Made by a program: the position numbers and the translations under genes. Below the pieces are notes generated by a model. That model was not told where the DNA came from and searched no databases. It saw nothing but the letters and a program-made list of their open reading frames with translations. This document shows, piece by piece, positions 1-20,579 of a stretch of 21,076 nucleotides of DNA; position 1 is the stretch's first letter; each line of letters starts with the position of its first letter. Where the stretch lies: positions 1-21,076 of the IMG/VR virus record IMGVR_UViG_3300001450_000415. One strand, 5' to 3'. The DNA comes from a virus.

Positions 1-306
1 CAGAACAGTTGGTGTGAGCATAAGCCAAGCATCACGGTGTACTACACTGACGATGAGTTCCTTCAAGTAGCGCAGTGGATATGGGATAACTTTGATATCT
101 GTAGCGGCATTAGCTTACTACCTGTCAGTGATCATGTGTATCAGCAAGCACCCTATGAAGACATAAGTGCTGAAAAGTACAAGGAGTTAGTAGCGGAGAT
201 GCCCAAGGATGTTGATTGGAGTGAGTTAGAACAGTATGAAATGGAGGATAATACTACAGGCTCACAAGAATTAGCGTGTGTAGGTGGTGCATGTGAAATT
301 GTTTAA
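1..306 (+). CDS. nrdJ: Class II (B12-dependent) ribonucleotide reductase, C-terminal fragment
   Basis: The reading frame is open from base 1, so this is the last 101 residues of a gene that begins outside the window; the GTG at 37 is an internal Val codon, not a start. The segment starts QNSWCEHKPS and ends TTGSQELACVGGACEIV. Both match the C-terminal end of adenosylcobalamin-dependent ribonucleotide reductases, which make deoxyribonucleotides for DNA replication in the cytoplasm. The tail pair Cys-X4-Cys (CVGGAC) is in the place of the redox-shuttle cysteines that re-reduce the active site in this class. Such reductases are common in marine phages, where they supply dNTPs during infection. 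It lies on the strand opposite to the structural genes, probably in a replication/nucleotide module to the left. The active-site region is outside the window, so activity cannot be judged. Confidence 0.9.
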   Translation, partial: QNSWCEHKPSITVYYTDDEFLQVAQWIWDNFDICSGISLLPVSDHVYQQAPYEDISAEKYKELVAEMPKDVDWSELEQYEMEDNTTGSQELACVGGACEIV

Positions 307-1570: not shown

Positions 1571-1954
1571 TTATCTTCCTTGCTTTGCTCTAACGTCACG
1601 CACTGCTGTTTTGATTGCATCTTCAGCAAGTACAGAGCAGTGTATCTTAACTGGAGGAAGCGCCAATTCTTCGGCGATATGCGTGTTCTCTATCTTTTCA
1701 GCTTCATCTAAACGCTTACCTTTAACCCATTCAGTTAAAAGCGAACTCGATGCAATGGCTGAACCACAGCCGTAAGTCTTAAACTTTGCATCTTCAATAA
1801 TACCTTCATCATTAACACGGATTTGTAAGCGCATTACATCGCCGCAAGCGGGAGCGCCTACCATTCCAGTGCCTACATTTTTAGATGTCTCATCCAGTTG
1901 GCCCACATTCCTTGGGTTTTCATAATGATCTATAACTTTTTCACTGTACGCCAC
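1571..1954 (-). CDS. iscU: Iron-sulfur cluster assembly scaffold IscU
   Basis: This 127-residue protein matches bacterial IscU along its whole length, starting MAYSEKVIDHYENPRNVG. IscU is the cytoplasmic scaffold on which IscS builds [2Fe-2S] clusters before HscA/HscB-assisted transfer to target proteins. All functional residues sit at the positions known in the E. coli protein: Cys37 and Asp39 (GAPACGD), Cys63 (YGCGSA), His105 and Cys106 (KIHCS), and the HscA-binding LPPVK at 99-103. It therefore looks active. The start is GTG at 1954, eight bases after an AGGAG site. The upstream cyclase gene ends 11 bases earlier, so the two are probably co-transcribed. No iscS, hscA, iscA or fdx is nearby, so the phage protein would have to work with host partners. 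The close match to gamma-/betaproteobacterial sequences suggests recent capture from such a host. Confidence 0.95.
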   Translation of the reverse strand: MAYSEKVIDHYENPRNVGQLDETSKNVGTGMVGAPACGDVMRLQIRVNDEGIIEDAKFKTYGCGSAIASSSLLTEWVKGKRLDEAEKIENTHIAEELALPPVKIHCSVLAEDAIKTAVRDVRAKQGR

Positions 1955-3759: not shown

Positions 3760-3843
3760 CTACACTAATATATTTATTGTATTGCCTTGTCGGGTTAGTG
3801 GAAAACCATACTTTAATTTTATATATCTTTTATAGTTAGTCAT
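3760..3843 (-). CDS. 27-codon leader ORF between FecR and cyclase genes
   Basis: A short ORF starts at an ATG sharing a base with the FecR stop (TAATG, 3845-3841), with AGGA six bases upstream at 3853-3850. It encodes 27 residues: a basic, Tyr/Lys-rich start (MTNYKRYIKLKYGFPL) then TRQGNTINILV, and stops at TAG (3762-3760). The TAG is in the same frame as the cyclase gene and only 15 bases before its ATA codon. This could be a coupling leader peptide that brings ribosomes to the cyclase, an interrupted N-terminal extension of the cyclase, or chance. The peptide is not a recognisable signal sequence. I recognise no homologue. Confidence 0.4.
   Translation of the reverse strand: MTNYKRYIKLKYGFPLTRQGNTINILV
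3776..3804 (-). promoter_or_regulatory. Candidate sigma70-type promoter for cyclase-iscU-basic genes
   Basis: On the minus strand a -35-like TTTCCA (3804-3799; four of six matches to TTGACA) is followed after exactly 17 bases by a -10-like TACAAT (3781-3776; five of six matches to TATAAT). Initiation would fall near 3769, giving a short leader that contains the AAGGAG site. This is the largest gap between recognised genes in the minus-strand block and is locally AT-rich, which fits a promoter but also raises the chance of a fortuitous match. Confidence 0.35.
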
Positions 3844-4943
3844 TATCCTTCCTGCGTAATCCTAATTACAGAATCACCTCCGTTGATCTTCACAGTATTA
3901 GAGATCCCATCTTGAATCAGTATCACTGTGTAGCCCCCTGTAGTATCTAAATCTAATCGCGTGTACTCACTTACGTTTCTAATCAGGCTTATTATCTGTC
4001 CTGTTATAAGAGCAGTAATCTGTGTCTCAGGGTCTGTACCTAAAGATGTTCCTGATATAGTTACGCCTGAAACCTGTGCTAAGCCATCCTTCTCTTCTTG
4101 TACAGCCAACACATCTAATATGTTTAACAAGTCTTCAAGGTAATTAACATCTAGAAAATTTATATCTAGCTCAGTAAACTCAAGGCTGTCATCTTCTAAA
4201 AAGTCTTCGTCTAGGTAGTCTATGTCTAGCTCATTAAAGTCTAGGATGTTTGCTGTCTTTGCAACTCTTTCTTCAGCTACTACCGCTTCTTCTTTTGGGG
4301 GTGTAACAATAAGCATGTTATCAATAAAGTCTAGAGTTAAGTCTAGTATTACAGGCTTAGAGGGCGCTGACTCAAACACCGACACCGTTGTTGCTTGGTA
4401 GGGCTTGTTCAACAACACACTGCCTGTAGCTGTTAACACTTCTATCTCTCCGCTTGATACACCAAACTTATCGGGCAGGAGTATAATCAGACTGCGGCCT
4501 AATTCGTCTACTGTGGCCGTGAAGTCCGTGCCGCGAATTGCAATATCTGCCGTAGGAGTTCTTAATTTTAAATTTTTTTTATTTAGCTTACCGCTTATAA
4601 ACCGTGCAGTTCCTAGTCCAAACGTAAGAGCCATCTTAGACTTGCTTGGGTCAGGATCATATATGTACTTATCTATTGTTAGTTGACTATGCTCAGTCAG
4701 CTTTACAACTGAGTCATCAAGAAACGTAATAGCCATCCTGCCATTCGCGGTGACTGCTTGATCGTTGGTCTGAACGGCAAACTTTAAGTCTGCGACAAGG
4801 GGCGCTTGTTCTCTTTTAATTTGTGCGTATCCAGATACCTCAGACACACCACCAATCTCAGCAAGAGAGGCTTGTACCTTGATCGTTTTGAATGACGCAA
4901 ACAGTACCGCCAGAGCCAGTAGAAAGTATTTTAAGCCAGTCAT
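3843..4943 (-). CDS. Secreted FecR-domain protein with acidic repeats and curlin-like tail
   Basis: A 366-residue exported protein. Residues 1-25 form a signal peptide (MTGLKYFLLALAVLFASF, then IKVQA). A FecR-type beta domain spans about 55-190, with its hallmark RTPTADIAIRGTDF at 128-141. A Glu/Lys-rich linker follows, then two 20-residue acidic repeats (236-271). The C-terminal ~50 residues contain LIQDGISNTV and VIRITQEG, which resemble the Q-x-G-x-x-N pattern of curlin strands. FecR domains usually transmit periplasmic signals; here there is no cytoplasmic anti-sigma segment or TM helix, so it is not a classical FecR regulator. Its position between the curlin-like gene and a CHASE2 cyclase suggests a periplasmic or surface partner of one of them. 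The start overlaps the previous gene by 86 bases; the signal peptide supports it. Confidence 0.85.
   Translation of the reverse strand: MTGLKYFLLALAVLFASFKTIKVQASLAEIGGVSEVSGYAQIKREQAPLVADLKFAVQTNDQAVTANGRMAITFLDDSVVKLTEHSQLTIDKYIYDPDPSKSKMALTFGLGTARFISGKLNKKNLKLRTPTADIAIRGTDFTATVDELGRSLIILLPDKFGVSSGEIEVLTATGSVLLNKPYQATTVSVFESAPSKPVILDLTLDFIDNMLIVTPPKEEAVVAEERVAKTANILDFNELDIDYLDEDFLEDDSLEFTELDINFLDVNYLEDLLNILDVLAVQEEKDGLAQVSGVTISGTSLGTDPETQITALITGQIISLIRNVSEYTRLDLDTTGGYTVILIQDGISNTVKINGGDSVIRITQEG
4131..4238 (-). repeat. Two acidic 20-residue repeats in the FecR protein
   Basis: Residues 236-251 (FNELDIDYLDEDFLED) and 256-271 (FTELDINFLDVNYLED) are near copies spaced 20 residues apart, with pattern F-x-ELDI-(D/N)-(Y/F)-LD-x-(D/N)-(Y/F)-LED. 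Regular Asp/Glu alternating with Leu/Ile/Tyr/Phe could form a calcium-binding or adhesive surface; this is inference. Confidence 0.75.
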
Positions 4944-5580
4944 TATCTTGGGTACTCAGTTGTTGGATGTTGAATGTCCGCGATCCACCTGTCTGGTCAA
5001 GGTAGAAATAGCCTCCTGCACTTGCAGTCACACCAGTTCCTGTATATGTGAGCGTGTTGTCAGAACCATCGATATCTACATAATTTGTCGCACCATCGAT
5101 GTTAATATTTGAGGTTATGGTGTTGTTAGAACCTTGTATAATCCAATCAAGATCAAGGGTTGCCGCTAAAGCAGTAGTGCCTTGATTAAGTGTCATTGTG
5201 TTGCTTGCCCCCGTGACTGAAACATTTTGATTTGAACTATTAGCCCCGTAAGTATTGGTTGGATCTACTTGGATTGTAAAAAGATTGCTTGATCCTACAA
5301 AATTATATAGCCCTGTGAAGCTATCAGCATAGATGTCGCCAAAGAACTTGTTAGTGTTACCTATCATGTTAATGTCAAGCGTTAAACTAGAGCCATCTAA
5401 ATCAAGAGGCGTTAGGTTTCCTGCGCTTGAATTTAAACCACCAATCAAGTTACTGGTGCCTAGCTGTTCTATGTCAATATTGGCCGTTGCGCCTGACTGC
5501 TCAATGTACACCTCGTTATCGGCACCATAAGCAACACCACTAAAGAGCAAAATCAATAGGCCGTTATTTATCTTTTTCAT
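4858..5580 (-). CDS. Curlin-like secreted protein (candidate CsgA/CsgB-type substrate)
   Basis: A 240-residue protein starting MKKINNGLLILLFSGVAYG, a clear signal peptide; the ATG at 5580 is preferred over one 27 bases upstream because of this. The mature part is Asn/Ser/Thr/Gly/Ile-rich with repeated G-x-x-N strands: EQSGATAN, EQLGTSN, MIGNTN, FVGSSN, VTGASN, IIQGSNN, IDGATN, IDGSDN. These resemble curlin beta-solenoid repeats, which polymerise into surface amyloid after export through CsgG, although the canonical curlin spacing is loose here. Two Cys (228 and 240) end the protein, which is unusual for E. coli curlins. Its location directly after csgF-csgG supports it as their substrate. It overlaps csgG by 17 bases and the FecR gene by 86. 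It could instead be a nucleator or a surface adhesin. Confidence 0.8.
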   Translation of the reverse strand: MKKINNGLLILLFSGVAYGADNEVYIEQSGATANIDIEQLGTSNLIGGLNSSAGNLTPLDLDGSSLTLDINMIGNTNKFFGDIYADSFTGLYNFVGSSNLFTIQVDPTNTYGANSSNQNVSVTGASNTMTLNQGTTALAATLDLDWIIQGSNNTITSNINIDGATNYVDIDGSDNTLTYTGTGVTASAGGYFYLDQTGGSRTFNIQQLSTQDNDWLKILSTGSGGTVCVIQNDQGTSLSC

Positions 5581-6385
5581 AAGTCCAAAACCCTCTGTTG
5601 TATCCAATATTTATTAACTCTAGTACGGCACCTTCTATTGCTTTCATTAATGCTATTGTGGTTGACTCGTTGCGCGAGTTACCTGCTTCAATTTCAACAA
5701 GCTCCGTACCCATTTCTATAAATTTAAAAACATCATCTGATTGTCCGTAACTAAACACTGTTTTCTGACTCATAACCTCTACAAGTATTTCCCCTGTAGC
5801 TACGGACACCATCCTTAATGACACCGTAATGTTATCTTCTCTGTACTGTGCGCTCTTGCCTATGCCTAAATATCTAGCGCCAACTCCACCAGTGCTTAGG
5901 TTTGAATCATAAGCGATAACCGCGCCTTCTAATAACACACCCGCAAATAATAGAGGCGGTACTTTCTTAGCGCCACCTTCATTAGAAACCTGCTCTCGCG
6001 CTGAGCGTATTAACTGTCTTTCTTTTGTCAGGTTATCTAAGCCTACGCGCTCTACAACTCTAAAAAACTTGCCGTTGCTTGCGTGTTTCAACGCTCTTAT
6101 TAACAAGGCGCTAGGTTGCTGTGTCACAGCCGTAGAGAAGAGGGCAAAAGAGCTGTTGCTTTTCCTCTGTCCTGTCTGGTCTGTAAAAGAACTAGGATAA
6201 ACCGCAACTATAGGCTGTACTACGGGAGCTACAGCGTCCCTTAAAGCATGTGATTGAAGTTCATTTATCCTAACTACATCGTTTGCACTAAACCGTTGAT
6301 TATAAGTATCTTCAAACTGATCAACTATAGAACAGCTAGAAAGTAAAAGTACCAATGGGTAGAGTAATCTCTGTCGTATTTCCAT
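5564..6385 (-). CDS. csgG: Curli secretion pore lipoprotein CsgG
   Basis: About 273 residues. CsgG is an outer-membrane lipoprotein that assembles into a nonameric pore exporting curlin subunits. The N-terminus has a lipobox (LLLSSC). Stretches match CsgG closely: FTDQTGQRK, FSTAVTQQPSALLIRAL, FFRVVERVGLDNLTKERQ, IAYDSNLSTGGVGARYLGIG, VATGEILVEV and NRGFWTYEKD near the C-terminus. Length is close to the E. coli protein (277). In the constriction loop, Phe of FSTAV is kept, but the Tyr and Asn that narrow the E. coli pore appear replaced and the loop is about one residue longer. Two starts are possible, ATG 6391 and ATG 6385; I prefer 6385 because GGA lies five bases before it. Either way it overlaps csgF by at least 50 bases. 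No csgE is present in the window. Confidence 0.95.
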   Translation of the reverse strand: MEIRQRLLYPLVLLLSSCSIVDQFEDTYNQRFSANDVVRINELQSHALRDAVAPVVQPIVAVYPSSFTDQTGQRKSNSSFALFSTAVTQQPSALLIRALKHASNGKFFRVVERVGLDNLTKERQLIRSAREQVSNEGGAKKVPPLLFAGVLLEGAVIAYDSNLSTGGVGARYLGIGKSAQYREDNITVSLRMVSVATGEILVEVMSQKTVFSYGQSDDVFKFIEMGTELVEIEAGNSRNESTTIALMKAIEGAVLELINIGYNRGFWTYEKDK

Positions 6386-6830
6386 TTGCATCCGTTATTA
6401 TTAGGGTTATAAAATCACCGTCAATGGTGTACGTAATAGTGTTGCCCTCTAGCTCAATCGTTCCCCCTGTACTTGCTGTCTCGCCAAAGAGGTTGTTAAC
6501 TAACTGGCGACTAAGCTCTGCGTAGATGCGTGATTCTAAGTTGCGTATAAACCTTGCAAGCGTAGTGTTCTCTGCATCGCGCTCAAGCTCTTCTTGATAC
6601 GCTTTAATCTCATCAGCTATATCTGACTTGCGATTAAATTCTTGGTTCTCAATTGTCAGGTAGTGTGAAGAAGTATTTACGCCGTTGAAACTAGGGCTTT
6701 TAAACTTGTGTGTTATTTGATCTGCTAAGGTATGGCCTGACCACAACACTACAAAAAAACACCAGAATGCCACACAGAACCAACAGTTTCGTAGTGTCTT
6801 GTGGCTTCTAAATGTAGGTACTAATTTCAT
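6336..6830 (-). CDS. csgF: Curli assembly factor CsgF
   Basis: A 164-residue exported protein. Residues 1-36 are a long signal peptide with a hydrophobic Trp/Phe/Val-rich core, and the mature protein starts ADQITHKFKSPSFNGVN. In E. coli CsgF the mature N-terminus has the same F-x-x-P-x-F-x-G pattern and inserts into the CsgG pore as a second constriction. The middle is a charged helix (EIKAYQEELERDAENTT...LARFIRNLESRIYAEL) and the C-terminal region is beta-rich with T/I repeats (TIDGDFITLIITDANGN), also as in CsgF. It is slightly longer than the E. coli protein (138). It sits one base after the 95-aa gene and overlaps csgG by 50-56 bases. Together with CsgG it would form a gated outer-membrane secretion channel. 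Confidence 0.9.
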   Translation of the reverse strand: MKLVPTFRSHKTLRNCWFCVAFWCFFVVLWSGHTLADQITHKFKSPSFNGVNTSSHYLTIENQEFNRKSDIADEIKAYQEELERDAENTTLARFIRNLESRIYAELSRQLVNNLFGETASTGGTIELEGNTITYTIDGDFITLIITDANGNTTEITLPIGTFTF

Positions 6831-6831
6831 G

Positions 6832-7119
6832 CTAATCTTTCCTCTGATCTTTTTTTCCGTCTGCTCTTGCTATCCTATCTACATCTACTTGAATCCCCAT
6901 AGCAGTTCTCACCATAGAGTCTATCCGTATCATGTCGTTGTCCATCTGTCTTACTCTGTCTATTAACGCAACAATCATTCCGTGCTGAGTATCTAGTTTC
7001 TTATGTACATCTGCTATCAAATGTTGGAACAGTTTCCATACAAGGTATCCTAGTCCTACAGCAAACGCCGCAGGAATGCCTATGGTTTCTATCATTTCCA
7101 TAGTTGTTTTTGGATTCAT
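6832..7119 (-). CDS. 95-aa one-TM protein with coiled coil, lysis cassette member
   Basis: A small protein with one N-terminal membrane helix (about residues 11-33, GIPAAFAVGLGYLVWKLF) followed by a charged amphipathic helix to residue ~80 (VHKKLDTQHGMIVALIDRV and DNDMIRIDSMVR), ending in a basic tail. It begins at an ATG that shares a base with the holin stop (TAATG, 7119). The layout, membrane anchor plus coiled coil next to a holin, resembles small lysis accessory proteins such as XhlA-type proteins or an inner-membrane spanin, but no diagnostic motif separates these. I see no recognisable outer-membrane spanin nearby. Orientation of the C-terminal helix in the membrane cannot be decided by eye. 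Confidence 0.75.
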   Translation of the reverse strand: MNPKTTMEMIETIGIPAAFAVGLGYLVWKLFQHLIADVHKKLDTQHGMIVALIDRVRQMDNDMIRIDSMVRTAMGIQVDVDRIARADGKKDQRKD

Positions 7120-7556
7120 TATTTTTTACTCACTAAACTGCCGCCAAAATACATGCCAATAATAGCTGAAACCAGATTAGTATCAAGCTGTGTTATAACT
7201 AAACCTTGAAAAGTTATCCACTCAAACACATCTTTGCCCTGAGTAAGAAACAAAAATCCCGGTTGAAAGTTTGTGTAGCCTACCGTAACATCTACCATAG
7301 GATAATACACAGCCACTAGCTTAGGCAGTATTACAATAGCAAAGACTGAAGACAGCGCAATGATCCTACGAGTCCACTGGAAACCTTTGTCCTTAACATC
7401 TCGTGCCGCCTTAACAGCTTTCTGTCCGAACTCACCGCGAGTTATAAGAAGCTTTTGATGCTCTGCTTTGTCCTTGCGGCTTTCTGCCCACACGCTCATG
7501 ACTCCACCAAGAACGGTAGAGCCAAGCATTGTAATTATCTCAAAGGGAAAGCCCAT
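7119..7556 (-). CDS. 3TM holin (gene-transfer-release holin type)
   Basis: A 145-residue protein starts MGFPFEIITMLGSTVLGGVM, has a charged helical segment (residues ~25-58), then the motif KGFQWTRRIIALSSVFAIVILPKL, and ends ITQLDTNLVSAIIGMYFGGSL plus VSKK. This arrangement of three hydrophobic segments with F-x-W-T-R-R and PGFLF, and a C-terminal F-GGSLV, fits the 3TM holin family described for gene transfer agent release (Pfam GTA_holin_3TM), which permeabilises the inner membrane to time lysis. It starts one base after the lysozyme-fused gene, with AAAGG upstream. Regulation of timing is not visible; there is no obvious dual start. Confidence 0.85.
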   Translation of the reverse strand: MGFPFEIITMLGSTVLGGVMSVWAESRKDKAEHQKLLITRGEFGQKAVKAARDVKDKGFQWTRRIIALSSVFAIVILPKLVAVYYPMVDVTVGYTNFQPGFLFLTQGKDVFEWITFQGLVITQLDTNLVSAIIGMYFGGSLVSKK

Positions 7557-7557
7557 A

Positions 7558-10500
7558 TTAACCTTTAATAAACTCTGAAGCTTCTTCTAAGCGACCTATA
7601 ATACCGCTAACATCTCCACCCTCTTTAGCAATTCTTTTATACTCGCGATACTCTTTATGGTCTAATAGTTCTATAGCCGCTTGTTCAAAGTTTCCTTCAT
7701 TAACACGATCTCTAAAAGTAGGGCTTTTCTGTAGGTCGCCCCTATACACTAAAGACATTAAAGCTTTCTGTTGCTTCTCAGAAAGACTATCAAATTTAGG
7801 AACATATCTTTTAGCTTCTTCCTGATGAATTTTAAACACTTCCTTAAAAGTCATGTTTTTATATTTACCTGTTTGCCCTACACCACTTGTTACAATATTT
7901 TTAGTATCCTTATACTCACCACCTACAAAACCTTCGTGTTCAACAACGTACTTCTGTAAGCTGTTTAACTCTCCTTCATCTTCCTCTACTCTACTAATAG
8001 CGTTTTTGCCGTAATATGTTTTAGGTTTTTTATTAGGAGTAGTCGGAGTCCCTTGAACTGCAAGAGCATTAATAATAACTCCTTCTTTGTACTCGTTCAT
8101 AAGTTCTTGATCTACGCCTTCTATTGTTTTAGCGTCAATTTTTTTTGCTACTTTTTCAATCTGTTGTAGTTGTTCTTGGTTAGGGGCTGTGTCAAAGTGT
8201 TTTAATATTGCTACTCCTGCTGACGATGCCATTTTAGAAACAGTATCTAAGATGCTAGAAGGTTCTTCTACAGCTACGCCGCCTTCAAACTTCTGAAGTC
8301 TTTCAACCAGACCCCCTTCAGCGTACCCCATATATGTTCTAAGCTGTTTTAAAGTTGGGTCTTTAAATGTCTTAACGCCTAATTTTTCTTTGCCTTTAGC
8401 ATCTACGTAAGGTGTGTAAACTTTGTAAGACCCATCTTCCATTAGCTCGTAAGTAAAATCTTTTTTACCTGTCCCGCTATAATCGGTGTAACCATTTTCA
8501 TCTAGGAAACTTGTTGTGACTTTTTCGTTTCTTGATGCCAGAGGTACATTTTGATAATCTCTAGAAGGTCTGTTAGCTTTTATAGATTTATTTAAATCTA
8601 AAAGATCATCTTCAATACCGTGTAGTATTGCACCGTCAGGGTCTAGTTCTGGCTGACGTTTAGTTACAAGCCTAGAAGCTTTTTGAACAGCACCTACAAG
8701 ATTTTTAGCTAGTATACGCCCACCCATAGAAAACTTAGCACGGTCTTCAATGTCTATATACGCGTCACCTGCTTGTGCGTTATATGGCAGACCTGTAATC
8801 TTATCAATTCTTTCGTCAGGCTCAGTAGGTACGTTAGGCACATCTTTGACTATGCCGCCTGTTGCAAATCCTAACATGCCTTCATCAGCTTCAAACTCTG
8901 GGATAAACCCTTGTTCAAATTCAGAAAGACTTTTATCAGCCGTATAAACAAAATGATCCATGTCAGCTTTAAAAATTTCAGCGGCCTCTTCATCTACAAT
9001 ACCTAAAATTTTCTGTACTGGCGATAAAGCGGCAGGAATTTTCCTAACTAATGTAGGTGTTATACCGCGCCGACCTACGCTTAAAGCATCAGTAGCTAAC
9101 GGGCCAAAAGGCAGTGTACCATAACCAAGTACAGATTGATTGTACTTGGCGGCATCATACGACTTAGTAATGTTGTCAGCTAGGATACCTAAACCGCCTA
9201 CACGTTTTACGGCTTGGAACAATGCATCGCCAGTTCCTTTTTCTTCTGACTTACCGTCTGATCTCCAATCATTCATAATACGAGCAACCTGAACCATTGA
9301 TAAAGCAGTTACTGCAACTTTACCTACGTTGCGCGGGTCGCCGCTCCGAACATCCTTTGTAATTTGTTTTATGCTTCCTTTAAGAACAGTGTTTGTAAAC
9401 GCCGCAGGATAACCCATCAACTGAAAAGCTATTGAGGTTTTAGGATTGCTAAACAACAATGGCTTTAAGTTAGACATGCCAGAAGGCTGTAAGATTACAG
9501 AGTTAGCATACCGCGCCGCACCCGCAAGAAAAGTTTTGTCATAAAACTCCTCGTTTCGTTTAGCTCCATTTTTATACCACTTCATTGCATCTTTATAATC
9601 TATATCTAGCTCAGCTAACTCACCTATTAAAGTGTTCTGTCTTTTGCCTAGCGGCCTAGCTCCGTGAGCTACAAGGGCTTGAATGTTCTCTTCAATTAAA
9701 TTCTTACCGCTCATAAACGAACTTGTCTGTACAAACTTAGTCCAATCTTCAAGCAGAGTCATTTTAAAGAAACCGCTACTTGCTTTCTGCATCCACTTAG
9801 TTTGTAAATCATCACCACCTAAACGGTTCTCTAGCTGAGTCAAGCCCATGTCCATGCCTAAACTAAACTTACGCATTTCTGCTCTGGCTTCTGCGGCTGT
9901 TATACCATGCTGAGACATGAGCTTAGCTTGCATGTTACCTGTAGCTCCTTTGTAAGAAAGCTCCATTGCTTCTCCTAGACCTTTAAAACTATTTCTAAAT
10001 CCTGACTTACTCACATTTAAAAACACTTCTGTCAAACTAGATACCGTTGCAAGACCTAAGTAAGCTACTCTGTTTATTAAACCGTAGCCATCTACTGCGC
10101 CCTGTGAGTACTTTCCAAACCTATTTAAGTTTTCAGAAGTAGTAGTGCGATATACTCTAGTAATTCTTTCAGCGTCTTTTTTTGTAAATGTTTCTCCTGC
10201 TTCAGCCATTTCTTTTCTAATGCGATCAATGTAAAAACTTTTAAATTCTTTTTCATTCCGAACACCCAAAGCTCTAACTTTTGCTAGACCTTTAGCGGCT
10301 TGAAAAGTATAGAGGTTCATGCTTGCTCTAACGTCAGTATCTAAAAACTCTTGAAAATCTGCATCTTTTTTAATGTTGTCAAAAGATCGTTTAGCTGAGA
10401 AAAAGAAACCACCAGAGCCACCGCTATCTAATTGGTTATCAATCTTCAACATGTCTTTAACGGTTTCCATGCCCTTTCCTTTAGGCACAACGCCTTGATC

Positions 10501-12159
10501 TTCAAACAACTTAGCTAAGCCTTTTTGATTTTCAAAAATAGCTTTACGGTTCCAAGAGCGTGGGATGTAATCGGCTACTTCATTTTCAATAAGCCCTGCT
10601 TCTTTAAGCTCAGAACCCATTTGCTTGTATAGTTTTTTAACGCCCACTGAAGATTTATTAATTGCTTTGTTCATTTCAGCAGTAAGACCATTTGCGCTTG
10701 TTGCTTTTTGTCCACGCACTGCTAACATTAAAGCATTGTTAACTTCATCAGCAAGTTTAGCGTTGTCTTTGTTACGCCTTAAAAATTTACTGGTAGCTAA
10801 CGGCTCTACAATAGCTCTGTAGTCTTCAAAGAAACGACCCTGTATCTCGCGTTGAGTTTCAAAAAAGTCTTTACCAACTAAACGACTATTGACTTTCCAA
10901 TCTATGCCTATTTCATGAGAGAATTTTTCTTGTAATATTTTAGCTGTTGAAGATACTTTTGCAAAGGGGCTTAGAACTCCTGAAGCTTTTCCAAGCCAAC
11001 GGCTAGTGCCGTGAGTAGCGTGAGCATATAGATCTTTCTTTATTTTATTTTTTATGGCTCCTGCTGTTGTTTCTGTTTTAGCCGCCGCCATGATAATAGC
11101 TTGCACCTCTTCTACAGTTTTAGCACCACCCCCTAAATCAGCCGCATATTTTTTTATAAGCTCTTCGTCAGGTGTAATGTTTTCATAATTTCTAGTAGTT
11201 CCTGAAAGTAAAGGGAGGTCATCTATTAAAGAAGCCGCAGAAGCAGGAATCCATTCGCCTTCAATGCCCTCGTCAAAAAGCTCAGCGCCCCTTTCAGGTG
11301 TAAACTCATCCATGTCAGAGTCAACTTTAAATTTCTGAGTTAACTTTTTAATACCGACAGTCATCCCAACATTTAAACCTGCTGAAATTCCTGCTGTAGC
11401 CACTGTTTGAAGCGGATTAAAATCTTCTTGGGAGCCTACAGTAATGTTTAGATTTTGATAAGCTAAATCATCTATTGTTCCTTGAGCCGCACCAATAGCC
11501 GCTACAGATTTCATAGGGTTTTTATCCATCAAAGCTCTAAGAGTTCGTAGTGTTGATTCTTGAGTAGGTACTTCACGCACTATAGTTGATACGCCTTTAG
11601 AGGGTAAACGAGCAACAGCAGAAGGGCCAGTTAAAGCCTTTTTAAGCGCAGTCTTAGCTACTGCTTTGCCTGTTTCTCTAGCCGCTAGTGCCGCAGGAGC
11701 GCCAACGCCGCCTGTCTGTGCCGCAAACCACACAGCACCAATGTTAAAAGGATCAGTAACAGCGTCTATGCCATAGTCTTTTATCATTCCTGCCCACTCA
11801 CCAATACCTTCGTTATTTACATTGGCAAATTTACTTTGTATGCGTTTATAGCTTTCTTTAATTTCTTCAGGAGCATCTTCTAAAACCATTGCTTTAGCTA
11901 TCATGTTTTCAAAACGAGATTCGCTGTCACGAAAAGACTCTAAGACATCTGCGTCTTCAGACATTAAATCTAAAGATGCGGGATCAAGGACTTTACCTGC
12001 CATGTACTCCCGCACAACTGACCAATCTTGTTTTACACTTTCGTCAGCCCTAAACTTAGTAGCTGTATAGGGAGTTAAACTTGTAGTTTTGCCTGTTCCA
12101 AAAGAAGAAGCGTCTTCGTCACGTAAATCTGGAAATTCTCCGGTAATCCTATTACTCAT
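7558..12159 (-). CDS. Giant virion/ejection protein with C-terminal T4-lysozyme-like (GH24) domain
   Basis: A 1533-residue protein. Most of it is helical, without recognisable enzyme domains; there are Gly/Ala-rich hydrophobic segments near residues 140-175 and 245-270, as in membrane-crossing internal phage proteins. A conserved-looking stretch around residue 1100 (ATGGIVKDVPNVPTEPDERI) recalls marine phage internal proteins. The C-terminal ~135 residues are a GH24 muramidase: VVEHEGF...EYKDTKNIVTSGVG places Glu1409, Asp1418 and Thr1424 with exactly the spacing of Glu11/Asp20/Thr26 of T4 lysozyme. It likely degrades peptidoglycan during DNA entry (like the lytic domain of T7 gp16) and perhaps at lysis, since the holin gene follows directly. 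A GGAGAG site overlaps the end of the previous gene. Confidence 0.85.
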   Translation of the reverse strand: MSNRITGEFPDLRDEDASSFGTGKTTSLTPYTATKFRADESVKQDWSVVREYMAGKVLDPASLDLMSEDADVLESFRDSESRFENMIAKAMVLEDAPEEIKESYKRIQSKFANVNNEGIGEWAGMIKDYGIDAVTDPFNIGAVWFAAQTGGVGAPAALAARETGKAVAKTALKKALTGPSAVARLPSKGVSTIVREVPTQESTLRTLRALMDKNPMKSVAAIGAAQGTIDDLAYQNLNITVGSQEDFNPLQTVATAGISAGLNVGMTVGIKKLTQKFKVDSDMDEFTPERGAELFDEGIEGEWIPASAASLIDDLPLLSGTTRNYENITPDEELIKKYAADLGGGAKTVEEVQAIIMAAAKTETTAGAIKNKIKKDLYAHATHGTSRWLGKASGVLSPFAKVSSTAKILQEKFSHEIGIDWKVNSRLVGKDFFETQREIQGRFFEDYRAIVEPLATSKFLRRNKDNAKLADEVNNALMLAVRGQKATSANGLTAEMNKAINKSSVGVKKLYKQMGSELKEAGLIENEVADYIPRSWNRKAIFENQKGLAKLFEDQGVVPKGKGMETVKDMLKIDNQLDSGGSGGFFFSAKRSFDNIKKDADFQEFLDTDVRASMNLYTFQAAKGLAKVRALGVRNEKEFKSFYIDRIRKEMAEAGETFTKKDAERITRVYRTTTSENLNRFGKYSQGAVDGYGLINRVAYLGLATVSSLTEVFLNVSKSGFRNSFKGLGEAMELSYKGATGNMQAKLMSQHGITAAEARAEMRKFSLGMDMGLTQLENRLGGDDLQTKWMQKASSGFFKMTLLEDWTKFVQTSSFMSGKNLIEENIQALVAHGARPLGKRQNTLIGELAELDIDYKDAMKWYKNGAKRNEEFYDKTFLAGAARYANSVILQPSGMSNLKPLLFSNPKTSIAFQLMGYPAAFTNTVLKGSIKQITKDVRSGDPRNVGKVAVTALSMVQVARIMNDWRSDGKSEEKGTGDALFQAVKRVGGLGILADNITKSYDAAKYNQSVLGYGTLPFGPLATDALSVGRRGITPTLVRKIPAALSPVQKILGIVDEEAAEIFKADMDHFVYTADKSLSEFEQGFIPEFEADEGMLGFATGGIVKDVPNVPTEPDERIDKITGLPYNAQAGDAYIDIEDRAKFSMGGRILAKNLVGAVQKASRLVTKRQPELDPDGAILHGIEDDLLDLNKSIKANRPSRDYQNVPLASRNEKVTTSFLDENGYTDYSGTGKKDFTYELMEDGSYKVYTPYVDAKGKEKLGVKTFKDPTLKQLRTYMGYAEGGLVERLQKFEGGVAVEEPSSILDTVSKMASSAGVAILKHFDTAPNQEQLQQIEKVAKKIDAKTIEGVDQELMNEYKEGVIINALAVQGTPTTPNKKPKTYYGKNAISRVEEDEGELNSLQKYVVEHEGFVGGEYKDTKNIVTSGVGQTGKYKNMTFKEVFKIHQEEAKRYVPKFDSLSEKQQKALMSLVYRGDLQKSPTFRDRVNEGNFEQAAIELLDHKEYREYKRIAKEGGDVSGIIGRLEEASEFIKG

Positions 12160-15839: not shown

Positions 15840-18800
15840 TTATCCAAATACACCTTTAACTAAATTAACTAACGTAGAAGAACCTGAAGAGTTTTTACCG
15901 CCCCCTGCACCTGCTTCGTTTCCTATAGCTGTTGCGTACAACGTAGCTTTACGCTGTTCTTCATTTTCATAAGACTGCCGTACATAAGCCGCTTCATCTC
16001 TTAGCTGTTGCCACATCTGACTTTGATCCATTGACGATAAACCAAAAGCGTTCTGAACATTCTGCTGATTAGCGGCGTTAGCGGCGGCAGTGTCTGCTGA
16101 GTTAGCTTGCCTACGCCAGTTTACATTAGATTGCTCAACGGCCTGTGCATTCGCGGCATTCCAAGTATCGCGCTGATTATCAATAGAAGCATTAAACTTA
16201 CTTATATCTGCTTCAAGCTGTGCAGTTAAAGAATCAGCCTGTAGTTGATTACCTGCTTCAATAGCGGCTTGGCGATTAGCCTCAGTAACATTAAAAGACT
16301 CCATAGCATTAAGTGCGCTTGTATTAAACTGCTTCATGTTATTAGATTGACTAATCATAAACTGATCTATCTGGTTCTGAGAAGTAGCACCAAATTGTTT
16401 TGCGGCGTTTTGCGCGGCTTGATCAGATAACAAAGCTTGTTGTGCTATCTGCTGATCCATTACAACCGCTTGTTGACGATTGCTTAGATTAGCCATATCT
16501 TTAGCTAAGAAGTTTTTAGCGTTCTCTACAGATACACGAGTCCTTGCATCAGCATTAGCTAGATCTGTTTGAGCTATTAGCGAAGCATTAGAAAGGGCTG
16601 TCTGCTGATCGGCACTAAACTTTGTAGCCGTCATAGTCTGCATAAACTTACTGTTAGCTATTTCCATTTGTTGCTCGTTGCTCATTTTACTCATATCAAA
16701 GTTAGCATTCATTTGAGCATTAAACATTCCTGCTGACTGCTCGTTGCTAAGATTTGCTAGGCCCATAGCCTGTGCAAGCTGTGCGTTAACCTGTCCTGCC
16801 GCCATTTTCTTTTCGTAGACTTGAAGCTGTTGAACATTCTCAGCAGACATAGAAGCCATATCAGCTTGACTCTGTGAGCTAAGGTTAGCTAGGTTTATCT
16901 TCTCTTCCATAGAGAGGTTAGCCATATCAGCATTTTGTTTAAGCTGTTCGTTCTGCGACATAACCTGAACAAAAGTATTAAGCTCTTGAGTTCTGCCTCT
17001 GTTAGCTTCAGTAAAGTTAGCGGCATCTACATTTGAACGCTCTTGAAGATTCGCAAGCTCCATCTGTTGCTCGTTACCTAAGTTAGCCAAGTCCATTTGC
17101 TGAGCCATAGCCGCGTTAGTTTTGCGGAAGTCCACTAAGACATTTAAGTTTGCAAGGCGCGTCTGTTGTTCTGCGCTCATGTTTGCACGAGAAGTAGTGT
17201 TCTTTTCTGCAAGTTCAGATAGTTCTACTTTTAACTTAGAATCTAAATTAACTTCTTCCATGCGTGAAGTTAGTTCTGCTTGGCGTGTAGCCCGTGCAAC
17301 TTTCTGATTCAGTTCTTGCATCCTAAACTGATTGTCTGCTGTAAAGTTTGAAGAATCTTCTCTAGACTTTTCAGCTAAGTTAGCTAGTTCCATCTGCTGT
17401 TCGTTAGATAAATTAGCTAATTCCATTTGCTGTGCAAAATTAGCATCAGTTTTACGGAAGTCTATAAGAGTGTTAATGTTCTGCATTCTTTCTGTTTGTT
17501 CTGCGGTCATTGTATCTTTAGCGGCGGCATTTTGTTCAGACAAGTTTTGCATTTCAATCTGTAATGCAGGGCCAAGATTAGCTTTTGTCATGTCTTGCTC
17601 TAGTTCTGCTGTACGCATAACCTTAGCTATTTGAGCGTTGTACGTAGCTAAACGCGATTGCTGATCAGCCGTCATGTTCTGCGACCCTGCGGCATTTAGA
17701 GCTTGCAAGTTTGCCAAGTCTGCTTGTGCGCCAGTGTTTAAGTTAGCCATAGCAGTTTGCTGACGCTGGGAAGACTCTTGTTGTGCGCGTTGCTGAGCCA
17801 TCTGTGCGTTAGTTAAGTTTGTTTCTTGTTGCTGTTGAGCAGTCGTCATTACAGCTTGTTGATCAAACGTGCCTTGCTGTAATTTAATCTGCTGTGCCAT
17901 GTCTGCTGTCTGAGATGCGGCAGTCTGACGGTTAGAAAGATTCTGCATCCGTACTTGCATAGTGTTCTGAGCAGTAGAAAGGTTAGCTTGTTGTTCGTTG
18001 CTAAGGTTTTGTTGCGCTCTAGCCTGTAGTGCTGTTGCATTGCTTTGTGCTATTGGTAACGCGCTCTGAATGATAGCGTTAAACAAAGCATCACGACCTA
18101 CAGTAGAAGCACTTAAACCTCTCTGAGCCATCTTAGCTTCCATAGCCGCTACAGCAGGTCTAGCCCACGCAGGAGTCTCGCCATCTTCCATGCCCGCTAA
18201 TAAGCTTTCCATCTGTGTAGAAACTAATGCTTCTTTTGGAAGTGCCGCAATAGCCGCAACAGTTTGAGGATCAGCGCCTGAGTCTAGCTGAGCTTCTACA
18301 GTTGCAGGGTCTTGAGCAATAGCCGCTGTAACTTCAGGAGAAACATCTGCAACAACTGCCATCATGTCTGCGGCGGCGGCGTTACGTGCTTGACCTATTA
18401 CTGCATCAAACTTAGCGGCGGCGGCTGTAGGGATACCACCAATCTGCGAGGCATCTCCTTTAGGCGCGTCACCTGTAATAGCTTGTCGGCCTTCTAAGTC
18501 TACAGAAGGCCCAGTGCCTAGTTCAGTAGCTTTTCTAGTTTTTGCTTCGCCTACTTGAGCTTCACTTTCTGCGGCTTTTTCATACGCAGGTATAGCATCT
18601 ATTTCTGTGTTGCCGCCCTGTGGCGTATAATCTGCGCCATAAGTTTCTGCTCTAGCCGCTGTCTCTTCAGGAGCTTCTCCCATTCTAGGCGTATATCCTT
18701 TTTGTGCGGCATCGCCTGATTGGACTTTACGCTGAACCATAGCTTCGCTGTAAGCTTTAAGCGCGTCTGTAGGATCAAGCCCACGTTTTTCAGCATCTAA

Positions 18801-20579
18801 TCTAATTTCATCAACCTTAGATTGCGGTATTGTTACGCCGTCACTTATAGTTACTTGAGGCTCGTCTACTGTTGAAGTATCAAAACCGTAGTCTGAATCA
18901 TCTCTAGCGGCTGTAGCATAATCTTTATACTCTGGTCTATCAGCAAATGTTCCTTTGGCGGCTTCTTCAGCGGCGGTATCACGTTGAGTTTCTCCTGCTT
19001 GAGAAATGTCATCTACTTGACCTGCTTCTGCTTTAGTTGGATCACCCTCAAATTGAGCCGCGTCAGTTGCGTCCATTTCGCCTTCAGTAGTTGTCGCCTT
19101 GTAAGTTGTTGCGTCTCTTGAAGTTGTATTAAATTCCATGTTGTTAGCGGCTTCAAGACCTTTAAGGAAATCCATGTCACTAAAGAAAGCAGGAAACGGC
19201 GCTTCGCTACCTTGCTTGTTGTTTACGCCCCACTCTCTAAGTTCTTTTCTTTGTGAATCAGTTAAATCAGGATACTGATCTACAAGTTTATCGGCCCACT
19301 GCTCAGCCTCTGGGACAACTCCTGCAACTTCGGCCTGACTTGCCCTTCCTTGTTCGGCTGTAAGCGTGTCTGCGGTCACTGTGCTTGATGTAGCGTCTGT
19401 AGCATCACCAAGCTTTTGAATGTCTTCATCGCCTGTTACGGTTCCTGCGGGTGCTGTGCCATCTTCACTTAGTATTGTGTCTGCTGTCATTTGGTCTAAG
19501 GTTGTTACAGGAGCATCATATGTTACGCCTCTAGGCGCTCCAGTGCTTGTCTTACCTTCAATGGTGACTCCACCCATTGTGTCGGATGCAGGGGCTTGAT
19601 CGTCTTGGCCGCCACCGCCTTGATTACCGCCTTGATTACCGCCTTGATTACCGCCACCGCCTCGATTACCACCATTACCGTTGTTTTCTTGTGTTCCTTC
19701 CGCGTTCGGATTATATCCTCCTCCGTAGTCTTCAGCAAGTTTAGCTAACTGAGCAGGAGTAAGTCCTGTAAAACCACTACCCATCATGCTTTGTTGTGCT
19801 ACATTTTGAGACTGTTGGGATTGAGGCATAGAAGCCCGTTGTGCTACATCTTGAGACCGTTGATTTGTTTGAGAACCTGCGTCCTGTTTGGCGGCATCAG
19901 CGTTTGTTTGAGAAGCTCTACGAAAGTTAGCTGTGTCTCCCGTGCTTTTCTTTTCTTGATTAAACTGTGAGCCAAGCAAGTCTTTTAAATTTGCAAGATT
20001 AGAAGTTCCCTTCGGTGTGTACTGCGCGTTTTTTATTGTTTCGCTTTCTTGTAAAGCGTTTTGTTGTTGGAGTTGTCTTTGTTGTAAAACGTTCCGCTGA
20101 GGATCAAGCATATCCTCTTGCGTAGCAGGTCTTCCCATGCTTGGTGGAGCAATGCTTTCATTAGAGATTGGGGTTTGATTTCCAAGCAGAGTTTCTCTTC
20201 CACCGCCTCCAAGCTGTTGCTCTATATTAGGAACTGTAGGTTGGTTTCCAATAGGTCGGCCTCTTCCACCGCCTGTTGAGCGAGAAGGTTCTGGAAGCTT
20301 AATATCTTTAGGATTCTTCATTCCACCAACTCTAACAGGATCAGCAAACAAACTAGGTTTAGGCTTAGGTAAAGGAGTAGGCTTACCTCCTATTTTTGTA
20401 GGCTTTTGATCAGAAACTTTTAAAGGCTCTAGCGCCGATTTTATTTGCTTTAGTTCTTGTACAGGCTGAGCGGCTTTTCGCGCAGGAGGATTTCCTCTTC
20501 TACCACCCCTAGCATATTGCTTACGTTTCAGAGTCTCCAAAGACTTATTAGCGGTTTTCTTATTTCCTTTTTTACTCAT
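15840..20579 (-). CDS. 1579-aa repetitive coiled-coil virion protein
   Basis: A very large protein in clear segments: a basic, Pro/Lys-rich head (1-~110); a Gln/Asn/Gly-rich low-complexity region including GGNQ repeats (~110-330); an Asp/Thr/Ala-rich acidic region (~330-740); a short ordered part (ETPAWARPAVAAMEAKMAQR, GRDALFNAIIQSALPIAQSN); then a long Gln/Asn/Ala-rich helical domain built from ANLSNEQQ-type units (~850-1400), including an exact 55-residue periodicity; and an Ala/Asn/Gln-rich C-terminus with WQQLRDEAAYVRQSYENEEQ near the end. Repetitive proteins with NLSNEQQ units are, from memory, structural proteins in marine phages. A long fibrous or internal-core role is likely. The ATG lies inside the end of the preceding tiny gene, with GGTAGGAT upstream. 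No enzyme domain is seen. Confidence 0.85.
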   Translation of the reverse strand: MSKKGNKKTANKSLETLKRKQYARGGRRGNPPARKAAQPVQELKQIKSALEPLKVSDQKPTKIGGKPTPLPKPKPSLFADPVRVGGMKNPKDIKLPEPSRSTGGGRGRPIGNQPTVPNIEQQLGGGGRETLLGNQTPISNESIAPPSMGRPATQEDMLDPQRNVLQQRQLQQQNALQESETIKNAQYTPKGTSNLANLKDLLGSQFNQEKKSTGDTANFRRASQTNADAAKQDAGSQTNQRSQDVAQRASMPQSQQSQNVAQQSMMGSGFTGLTPAQLAKLAEDYGGGYNPNAEGTQENNGNGGNRGGGGNQGGNQGGNQGGGGQDDQAPASDTMGGVTIEGKTSTGAPRGVTYDAPVTTLDQMTADTILSEDGTAPAGTVTGDEDIQKLGDATDATSSTVTADTLTAEQGRASQAEVAGVVPEAEQWADKLVDQYPDLTDSQRKELREWGVNNKQGSEAPFPAFFSDMDFLKGLEAANNMEFNTTSRDATTYKATTTEGEMDATDAAQFEGDPTKAEAGQVDDISQAGETQRDTAAEEAAKGTFADRPEYKDYATAARDDSDYGFDTSTVDEPQVTISDGVTIPQSKVDEIRLDAEKRGLDPTDALKAYSEAMVQRKVQSGDAAQKGYTPRMGEAPEETAARAETYGADYTPQGGNTEIDAIPAYEKAAESEAQVGEAKTRKATELGTGPSVDLEGRQAITGDAPKGDASQIGGIPTAAAAKFDAVIGQARNAAAADMMAVVADVSPEVTAAIAQDPATVEAQLDSGADPQTVAAIAALPKEALVSTQMESLLAGMEDGETPAWARPAVAAMEAKMAQRGLSASTVGRDALFNAIIQSALPIAQSNATALQARAQQNLSNEQQANLSTAQNTMQVRMQNLSNRQTAASQTADMAQQIKLQQGTFDQQAVMTTAQQQQETNLTNAQMAQQRAQQESSQRQQTAMANLNTGAQADLANLQALNAAGSQNMTADQQSRLATYNAQIAKVMRTAELEQDMTKANLGPALQIEMQNLSEQNAAAKDTMTAEQTERMQNINTLIDFRKTDANFAQQMELANLSNEQQMELANLAEKSREDSSNFTADNQFRMQELNQKVARATRQAELTSRMEEVNLDSKLKVELSELAEKNTTSRANMSAEQQTRLANLNVLVDFRKTNAAMAQQMDLANLGNEQQMELANLQERSNVDAANFTEANRGRTQELNTFVQVMSQNEQLKQNADMANLSMEEKINLANLSSQSQADMASMSAENVQQLQVYEKKMAAGQVNAQLAQAMGLANLSNEQSAGMFNAQMNANFDMSKMSNEQQMEIANSKFMQTMTATKFSADQQTALSNASLIAQTDLANADARTRVSVENAKNFLAKDMANLSNRQQAVVMDQQIAQQALLSDQAAQNAAKQFGATSQNQIDQFMISQSNNMKQFNTSALNAMESFNVTEANRQAAIEAGNQLQADSLTAQLEADISKFNASIDNQRDTWNAANAQAVEQSNVNWRRQANSADTAAANAANQQNVQNAFGLSSMDQSQMWQQLRDEAAYVRQSYENEEQRKATLYATAIGNEAGAGGGKNSSGSSTLVNLVKGVFG
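16686..17675 (-). repeat. Three 110-residue (two 55-residue halves) hendecad repeats
   Basis: Residues 969-1078, 1079-1188 and 1189-1298 of the 1579-aa protein align without gaps. Each starts (M/F)T-(A/E)-x-(Q/N)-x-x-R and has at position 56 M-(T/S)-AE-(Q/N). The first two share DFRKT at 72 and NEQQMELANL at 91; the third has NLSNEQ at the same place. Each 55-residue half is five 11-residue units (for example MELANLSNEQQ). Confidence 0.85.
19619..19654 (-). repeat. 12-bp tandem repeat (x3) encoding GGNQ
   Basis: The plus strand reads CTTGATTACCGC three times in perfect tandem, encoding Gly-Gly-Asn-Gln repeats in the disordered region of the 1579-aa protein. Degenerate copies flank it on both sides (about 19606-19690). 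It is a likely site of slippage and length variation. Confidence 0.95.

Follow-up and report, generated by a model that had tools for sequence, protein, structure and literature searches.

The window analysed here, a stretch of 21,076 nucleotides, carries on its minus strand at 3843-6830 what its sequence identifies as a type VIII/curli secretion module borne by a phage. The csgF, csgG, curlin-like and FecR genes that the original prediction placed there are consecutive and overlapping, all on the minus strand. The cassette extends beyond this interval: a CHASE2-cyclase gene lies downstream of the FecR gene and is followed by IscU, and upstream of csgF there are genes for a 95-aa protein (TM95), a 145-aa membrane protein and a 1533-aa lysozyme-bearing virion protein. 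The relevant features are as follows.

7558-12159, minus strand: virion protein, 1533 aa, with a lysozyme domain at the C-terminus (E=6e-6)
7119..7556, minus strand: membrane protein, 145 aa, holin candidate (hydrophobic segment)
6832..7119, minus strand: TM95, 95 aa, first module gene; phrog_18771 (function not assigned)
6336..6830, minus strand: csgF, 164 aa, chaperone and pore partner of curli; Pfam CsgF 1e-15 (residues 24-158), phrog_35372 1.6e-44
6633..6722, minus strand: mature CsgF N-terminus (DQITHKFKSPSFNGVNTSSHYLTIENQE...), strongly conserved among phages and recognisable in the chromosomal loci L085-L087
5564..6391, minus strand: csgG, 275 aa; Pfam CsgG 4.7e-50, lipobox LLSSC with Cys20
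4858..5580, minus strand: curlin-like secreted protein, 240 aa, candidate fibre subunit (signal peptide, repeats)
3843..4943, minus strand: FecR-domain exported protein, 366 aa; Pfam FecR E=3.8e-11
3846..3932, minus strand: curlin-type repeat at the FecR C-terminus (YTVILIQDGISNTVKINGGDSVIRITQEG), by tail pattern and matrix score
1966..3708, minus strand: CHASE2 sensor with class III adenylate cyclase, 580 aa; Pfam CHASE2 4.1e-31, Guanylate_cyc 5.3e-21
1571-1954, minus strand: IscU Fe-S scaffold; TIGR01999, 223 bits, above the cut-off
37-306, plus strand: C-terminal end of an adenosylcobalamin-dependent ribonucleotide reductase (RNR) at the left window edge; TIGR02505

The identities of CsgG and CsgF are secure as sequence assignments. 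E. coli CsgG in the PDB aligns with residues 51-272 of the window protein (E=4.7e-44), which together with the CsgG and CsgF profile matches supports the predicted module type; a sequence search of the PDB with CsgF gave nothing useful. The window CsgG is 52% identical to that of HTVC008M and 45% to that of Melnitz. Cys20 of the lipobox is invariant among the aligned CsgGs and, since the lipobox is kept, CsgG should reach the outer membrane. The N-terminal pore-binding segment of CsgF is strongly conserved across the phages examined. We take this mature N-terminus to be the segment that binds inside the CsgG pore in the E. coli CsgG-CsgF structure.

The module had also been credited with its own candidate substrate, and this is supported by the predicted fold but not by the Pfam curlin profile. 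Curlin_rpt matches the window 240-aa protein with E=0.044, under the cut-off, while 8 of 23 relatives match it (best 8.6e-6). N-terminal curlin-type repeats (NEVYIEQSGATANIDIEQLGTSN) are conserved, and the protein resembles the annotated 'curlin-associated protein' of HTVC008M. The AlphaFold2 (AF2) model is all-beta with 16 strands (pLDDT 79, pTM 0.77). Its best Foldseek neighbours are largely beta-helices or beta-solenoids, among them an ice-binding protein, SufB/SufD and a tailspike, with the FapC amyloid lower in the list; none has E<0.001, and neither sequence nor structure search gave a significant PDB match. From the model we are moderately sure that the protein belongs to the beta-solenoid class, and it is likely a curlin by descent. 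The assignment as candidate substrate is thus supported by the repeats, the gene position and the all-beta model, not by the Pfam curlin cut-off.

The FecR protein consists of a signal peptide, the FecR domain, a disordered acidic linker (about residues 210-292) and a C-terminal beta domain (about 296-366). The AF2 model accordingly contains a signal helix, the FecR domain, a disordered stretch and a seven-strand C-terminal domain, with an overall pTM of 0.51. Foldseek matches it to the anti-sigma FecR domains 4m0n, 4m0h and 6ovk (E 1e-4 to 6e-4), and to 5ix9, a 'cell surface anchoring domain' (1.2 A over 62 columns, E=0.035, TM 0.73 on the target; the aligned FecR residues are not given). The latter match would fit a retention role of FecR. 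A sequence search of the PDB gave nothing useful. The architecture of sigma-regulator FecRs of the iron-citrate type, with a cytoplasmic N-terminus, a TM helix and the FecR domain in the periplasm, was not seen: the export signal comes first and a second hydrophobic segment is missing.

Since hhalign of FecR against curlin alignments was weak (E=0.042) and the Pfam curlin repeat was found in none of the FecRs tested, a matrix of curlin strands from bacterial curlins was built, and a tail pattern was scored with controls. The pattern [NSDGT]x[IVL]x[IVL]xQ ends all 89 distinct complete phage-module FecRs at most 2 residues from the C-terminus, these being related and not independent sequences. 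It is lacking at the end of all 29 non-curli FecRs taken from elsewhere in Caulobacterales, to which the Caulobacteraceae relative belongs. Of the three FecRs from chromosomal curli operons, those of L086 and L087 have this ending too; the Hyphomonas one (L085) ends in SVFILE without the Gln. Within the window group the tail is longer and makes up a full repeat, and the window repeat beats 200 of 200 shuffles against the curlin matrix. The likeness of the FecR tail to curlin is therefore a strong sequence pattern, not a proof of homology, because the sequences are related and profile methods alone miss the tail.

As predicted, csgE was not seen in the window. It is also absent from each relative tested, with no match in 12 genomes or records including the chromosomal relatives; the E. 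coli control was positive. CsgE is not a universal feature, since its absence is reported for pelagiphage and alphaproteobacterial modules (PMC9599517), and it is stated to be non-essential in E. coli (PMC7029224). With the gate not found, CsgG might serve as an ungated pore that admits nutrients or cofactors to the infected cell, as proposed in PMC7029224 and PMC9599517. However, an uptake pore leaves CsgF, the conserved curlin-like protein and the curlin-tailed FecR unexplained, and we consider it improbable.

Viral contigs were scanned with the CsgGs of the window (552 relatives) and of HTVC008M (194 relatives), and 160 loci were kept. The synteny looked for in viral contigs was found in nearly all of these csgG loci when only those with enough flanking sequence were counted: csgF precedes csgG in 146 of 146 loci, FecR follows in 113 of 113 and the cyclase in 50 of 51. 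The curlin gene passes a strict distance rule in 126 of 134; in the remaining loci that were checked it is adjacent, and its overlap with csgG is longer than the rule permits. Behind FecR, 18 of 25 HTVC008M-type loci have another curlin gene, versus 0 of 68 window-type loci. Since the gene order recurs across 160 related viral loci, a chance arrangement is excluded. Purifying selection acts on the cassette, with dN of about 0.09-0.24 and dS >1 wherever estimable. One match, labelled Salmonella phage S.Kent (L004), was discarded; it is an unverified contig of 1.5 kb that groups with a Pseudomonas CsgG.

The assignment of the DNA to a phage stood up. The relative G314 carries a T7-type primase/helicase, PolA, endonuclease I and a class II RNR, and the window opens with the end of a G314-type RNR gene (81% identity at the C-terminus). 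These replication genes and the RNR end rule out a bacterial chromosomal island. The G314 polymerase is nearest to those of HTVC115P, HTVC103P and HTVC104P (45-47%), and the window belongs to a T7-like podovirus lineage with PolA and class II RNR. Another carrier (L076/L282) is of HTVC023P type (portal 50-54%), and a further one (L059/L283) has an HK97-type terminase-portal-capsid block beside the cassette. There the cassette is flanked by the HK97-type major capsid gene on one side and later genes on the other, and no lysis gene was seen nearby. Carriers thus comprise at least four types of phage: T7-like, HTVC023P-type, HK97-capsid and T4-like. The cassette proteins of the window share about 77-86% identity with those of the HK97-type contig. 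The GC content is near 0.42 in the window's set and near 0.34 in the HTVC008M set.

A scan of genomes from 84,980 species also revealed chromosomal modules. Two MAGs of Caulobacteraceae and, on a contig of 705 kb, Hyphomonas sp. TMED17 (together L085-L087) carry csgF-csgG-curlin(s)-FecR-CHASE2/cyclase among ordinary bacterial neighbours (TonB receptor, FAA hydrolase, glycosyltransferase, S9 peptidase). This is contrary to a published statement that FecR and cyclase do not occur within bacterial curli operons. The CsgGs of these three loci group with those of marine phages in a single clade (support 100/99), apart from 23 other bacterial CsgGs. With the Caulobacteraceae CsgG as query against viral contigs, no relatives were found by that route. 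A 'Planctomycetaceae' contig (L088) and a 'Pelagibacter' contig (L092) carry the module too; since both contigs are short and L088 also bears TM95 genes and one resembling lysozyme, they were left out of the chromosomal set.

Holdfasts are known in the Hyphomonas and Caulobacteraceae groups. The chromosomal relatives there, together with a weak NCBIfam HfaB match of the window CsgG, might indicate a relative of the holdfast anchor (HfaA/B/D) instead of curli. The CsgG match is far better, however (4.4e-49 versus 2.8e-7), csgF is present and the gene order is the curli order. Hence, a holdfast-anchor relative in place of curli is very improbable.

In the CHASE2 cyclase the two metal-binding Asp and the adenine-selecting Lys are invariant in 32 of 32 aligned sequences, and the Asn and Arg are nearly so; by these residues the class III adenylate cyclase active site is intact. 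FecR and cyclase genes also adjoin one another without curli in genomes of Caulobacterales. When 299 genomes were sampled evenly from this order, a full-length FecR match was found only in the Caulobacteraceae query genome. Other FecRs match mainly across the FecR domain, and at about one third of their loci a cyclase was matched inside the 1.5-kb flank. As a side observation, the IscU gene adjoins the cyclase gene, and L088 has an IscA-like gene in a matching neighbourhood.

Upstream of csgF, the predicted lysin was substantiated by the lysozyme domain. The two predicted holins (7119-7556 and 6832-7119) are both small and have a hydrophobic segment, and neither has a curated holin match. Podophage proteins of Vibrio and Alteromonas share about 42-49% identity with the C-terminal lysozyme domain. 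The 145-aa membrane protein occurs only in close relatives of the window and, judged from its sequence, is a holin candidate and a neighbour of the cassette rather than a member. TM95 has one N-terminal hydrophobic segment followed by a polar/coiled tail and is holin-like. Every phage locus with sufficient flank has one or two homologues close to csgG, in some cases between csgF and csgG (L213-L229); proteins of this kind are about 80-116 aa long with a single hydrophobic segment. Since TM95 is always present there and sometimes lies between csgF and csgG, we assign it to the module and not to the neighbouring lysis block; it was not seen in the bacterial operons L085-L087. The module of Wittmers et al. 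2022 (PMC9599517) has an upstream 'histidine kinase'. For TM95 such a function was rejected, as HisKA/HATPase gave no match among 22 family members. Probably, the TM95-type one-helix protein is the published 'histidine kinase'.

Buchholz et al. 2022 proposed that lysis is timed by CsgG/CsgF working like a pinholin or a secretin pore, and the downstream proteins would then be accessory. The window cassette indeed directly follows the lysozyme domain and holin-like genes, and TM95 travels with it. Nevertheless, the proposal was built on missing fibre genes, whereas HTVC008M, Melnitz and the further phage loci inspected have a curlin-like gene beside csgG. Moreover, the retained CsgG lipobox leads one to expect the outer membrane, the cassette of L059/L283 is surrounded by head genes and no lysis gene was seen nearby, and TM95-free versions exist in chromosomes. 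We therefore regard a repurposed lysis pore as rather unlikely.

The phage curli module and its main speculations are already published, and the window is an additional carrier. The order csgF-csgG-csgA/B-FecR-adenylate cyclase was described in podo- and myophages (Wittmers et al. 2022, PMC9599517), and the HTVC008M and Melnitz records annotate curlin-associated proteins at their csg loci, Melnitz also FecR. Hence, contrary to the premise of the original prediction, the substrate and the FecR partner are not new to phages. Aggregation, superinfection block and pore roles were likewise proposed earlier (PMC9599517, PMC7029224, Buchholz et al. 2022); virion exit through the CsgG pore was excluded by size (PMC7029224). 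The window shares with the T8SS module of pelagiphages, phages of SAR11 (PMC9599517, PMC7029224), the order short protein-csgF-csgG-curlin-FecR-cyclase and the lack of CsgE. That module, however, was described in HTVC023P-type podophages and T4-like pelagimyophages, whereas the window lineage is T7-like, lacks the second curlin gene and has an upstream gene without a kinase domain. HTVC008M and Melnitz share the window's gene order but have an extra, second curlin-like gene between FecR and cyclase. With E. coli csgBAC/csgDEFG the window has in common the CsgG pore, the CsgF partner and, as a candidate, a secreted curlin-repeat substrate; it differs by the lack of CsgE, by weaker and more diverged repeats and by FecR and a CHASE2 cyclase in the operon. 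In the Burkholderia BiofilmReg operon a secreted FecR protein occurs with a CHASE2 histidine kinase (PMC5192318). This pair resembles the window in an exported FecR beside a CHASE2-bearing sensor linked to biofilm, but there the sensor output is a histidine kinase instead of a cyclase, and the curlin tail is lacking in the 29 non-curli FecRs examined. New details are the phage lineage, i.e. the window's T7-like group, the curlin-like tail on phage-module FecRs and the matching chromosomal operons.

We favour, with a probability of roughly 60%, a secreted-fibre system with curlin-like fibres on infected cells, a FecR partner and a cyclase sensor. Late expression is probable, because the cassette sits with structural and lysis genes. 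CsgG would be exported as a lipoprotein and form an outer-membrane pore, in which CsgF would dock via its conserved N-terminal peptide. The curlin-like protein would pass this pore unfolded and then fold or stack into surface fibres on the infected cell. FecR may attach to or nucleate the fibre via its C-terminal curlin-type strand, in a CsgB-like role, and the periplasmic CHASE2 domain may read the FecR domain, the cyclase making cAMP according to the export state. A cell surface changed late in infection might keep neighbouring hosts close or exclude competing phages. The data show which genes are present, that they are conserved and selected, their fold class and catalytic residues, and how widely the cassette is spread; we infer surface fibres as the function, and likewise late expression, secretion, amyloid formation, FecR tethering, cAMP signalling and the benefit. 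In favour of this account are the CsgG and CsgF matches, the kept lipobox and CsgF pore peptide, the repeats and all-beta model of the curlin-like protein, the conserved module, the chromosomal operons with CsgGs in the phage clade, the FecR tail and the intact cyclase site. The FecR-cyclase neighbours without curli and the Burkholderia FecR-CHASE2 operon also count for it. The substrate below the cut-off and with no significant PDB match, the lack of CsgE, the weak FecR-curlin hhalign, the missing Pfam curlin repeat in FecRs and the fact that clumping was not seen in Melnitz-infected cultures count against it. A more specific arrangement, with the FecR domain in the periplasm, the linker threading CsgG, the tail outside capping or seeding the fibre and the CHASE2 cyclase reading FecR engagement, seems rather unlikely to us. 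In this arrangement the full-repeat tail of the window's group, which lacks a second curlin gene, would look like a stand-in for that subunit.

If the fibre system is real, a cassette moving between unrelated phage types would make infected cells curli producers, a new host-surface remodelling by viruses. Two questions become testable through the FecR tail and the operons in chromosomes: what FecR and cyclase contribute to phage curli, and in which lineage of bacteria the module is shared, as its possible donor or recipient.

Two further regions of the window lie on the minus strand. At 698-1546 four short, partly overlapping lysine-rich ORFs of 61-84 aa are about 85-97% conserved in close relatives. 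At 15840-20579 a repetitive Gln/Asn-rich protein of 1579 aa, probably structural, is conserved in the window's lineage.
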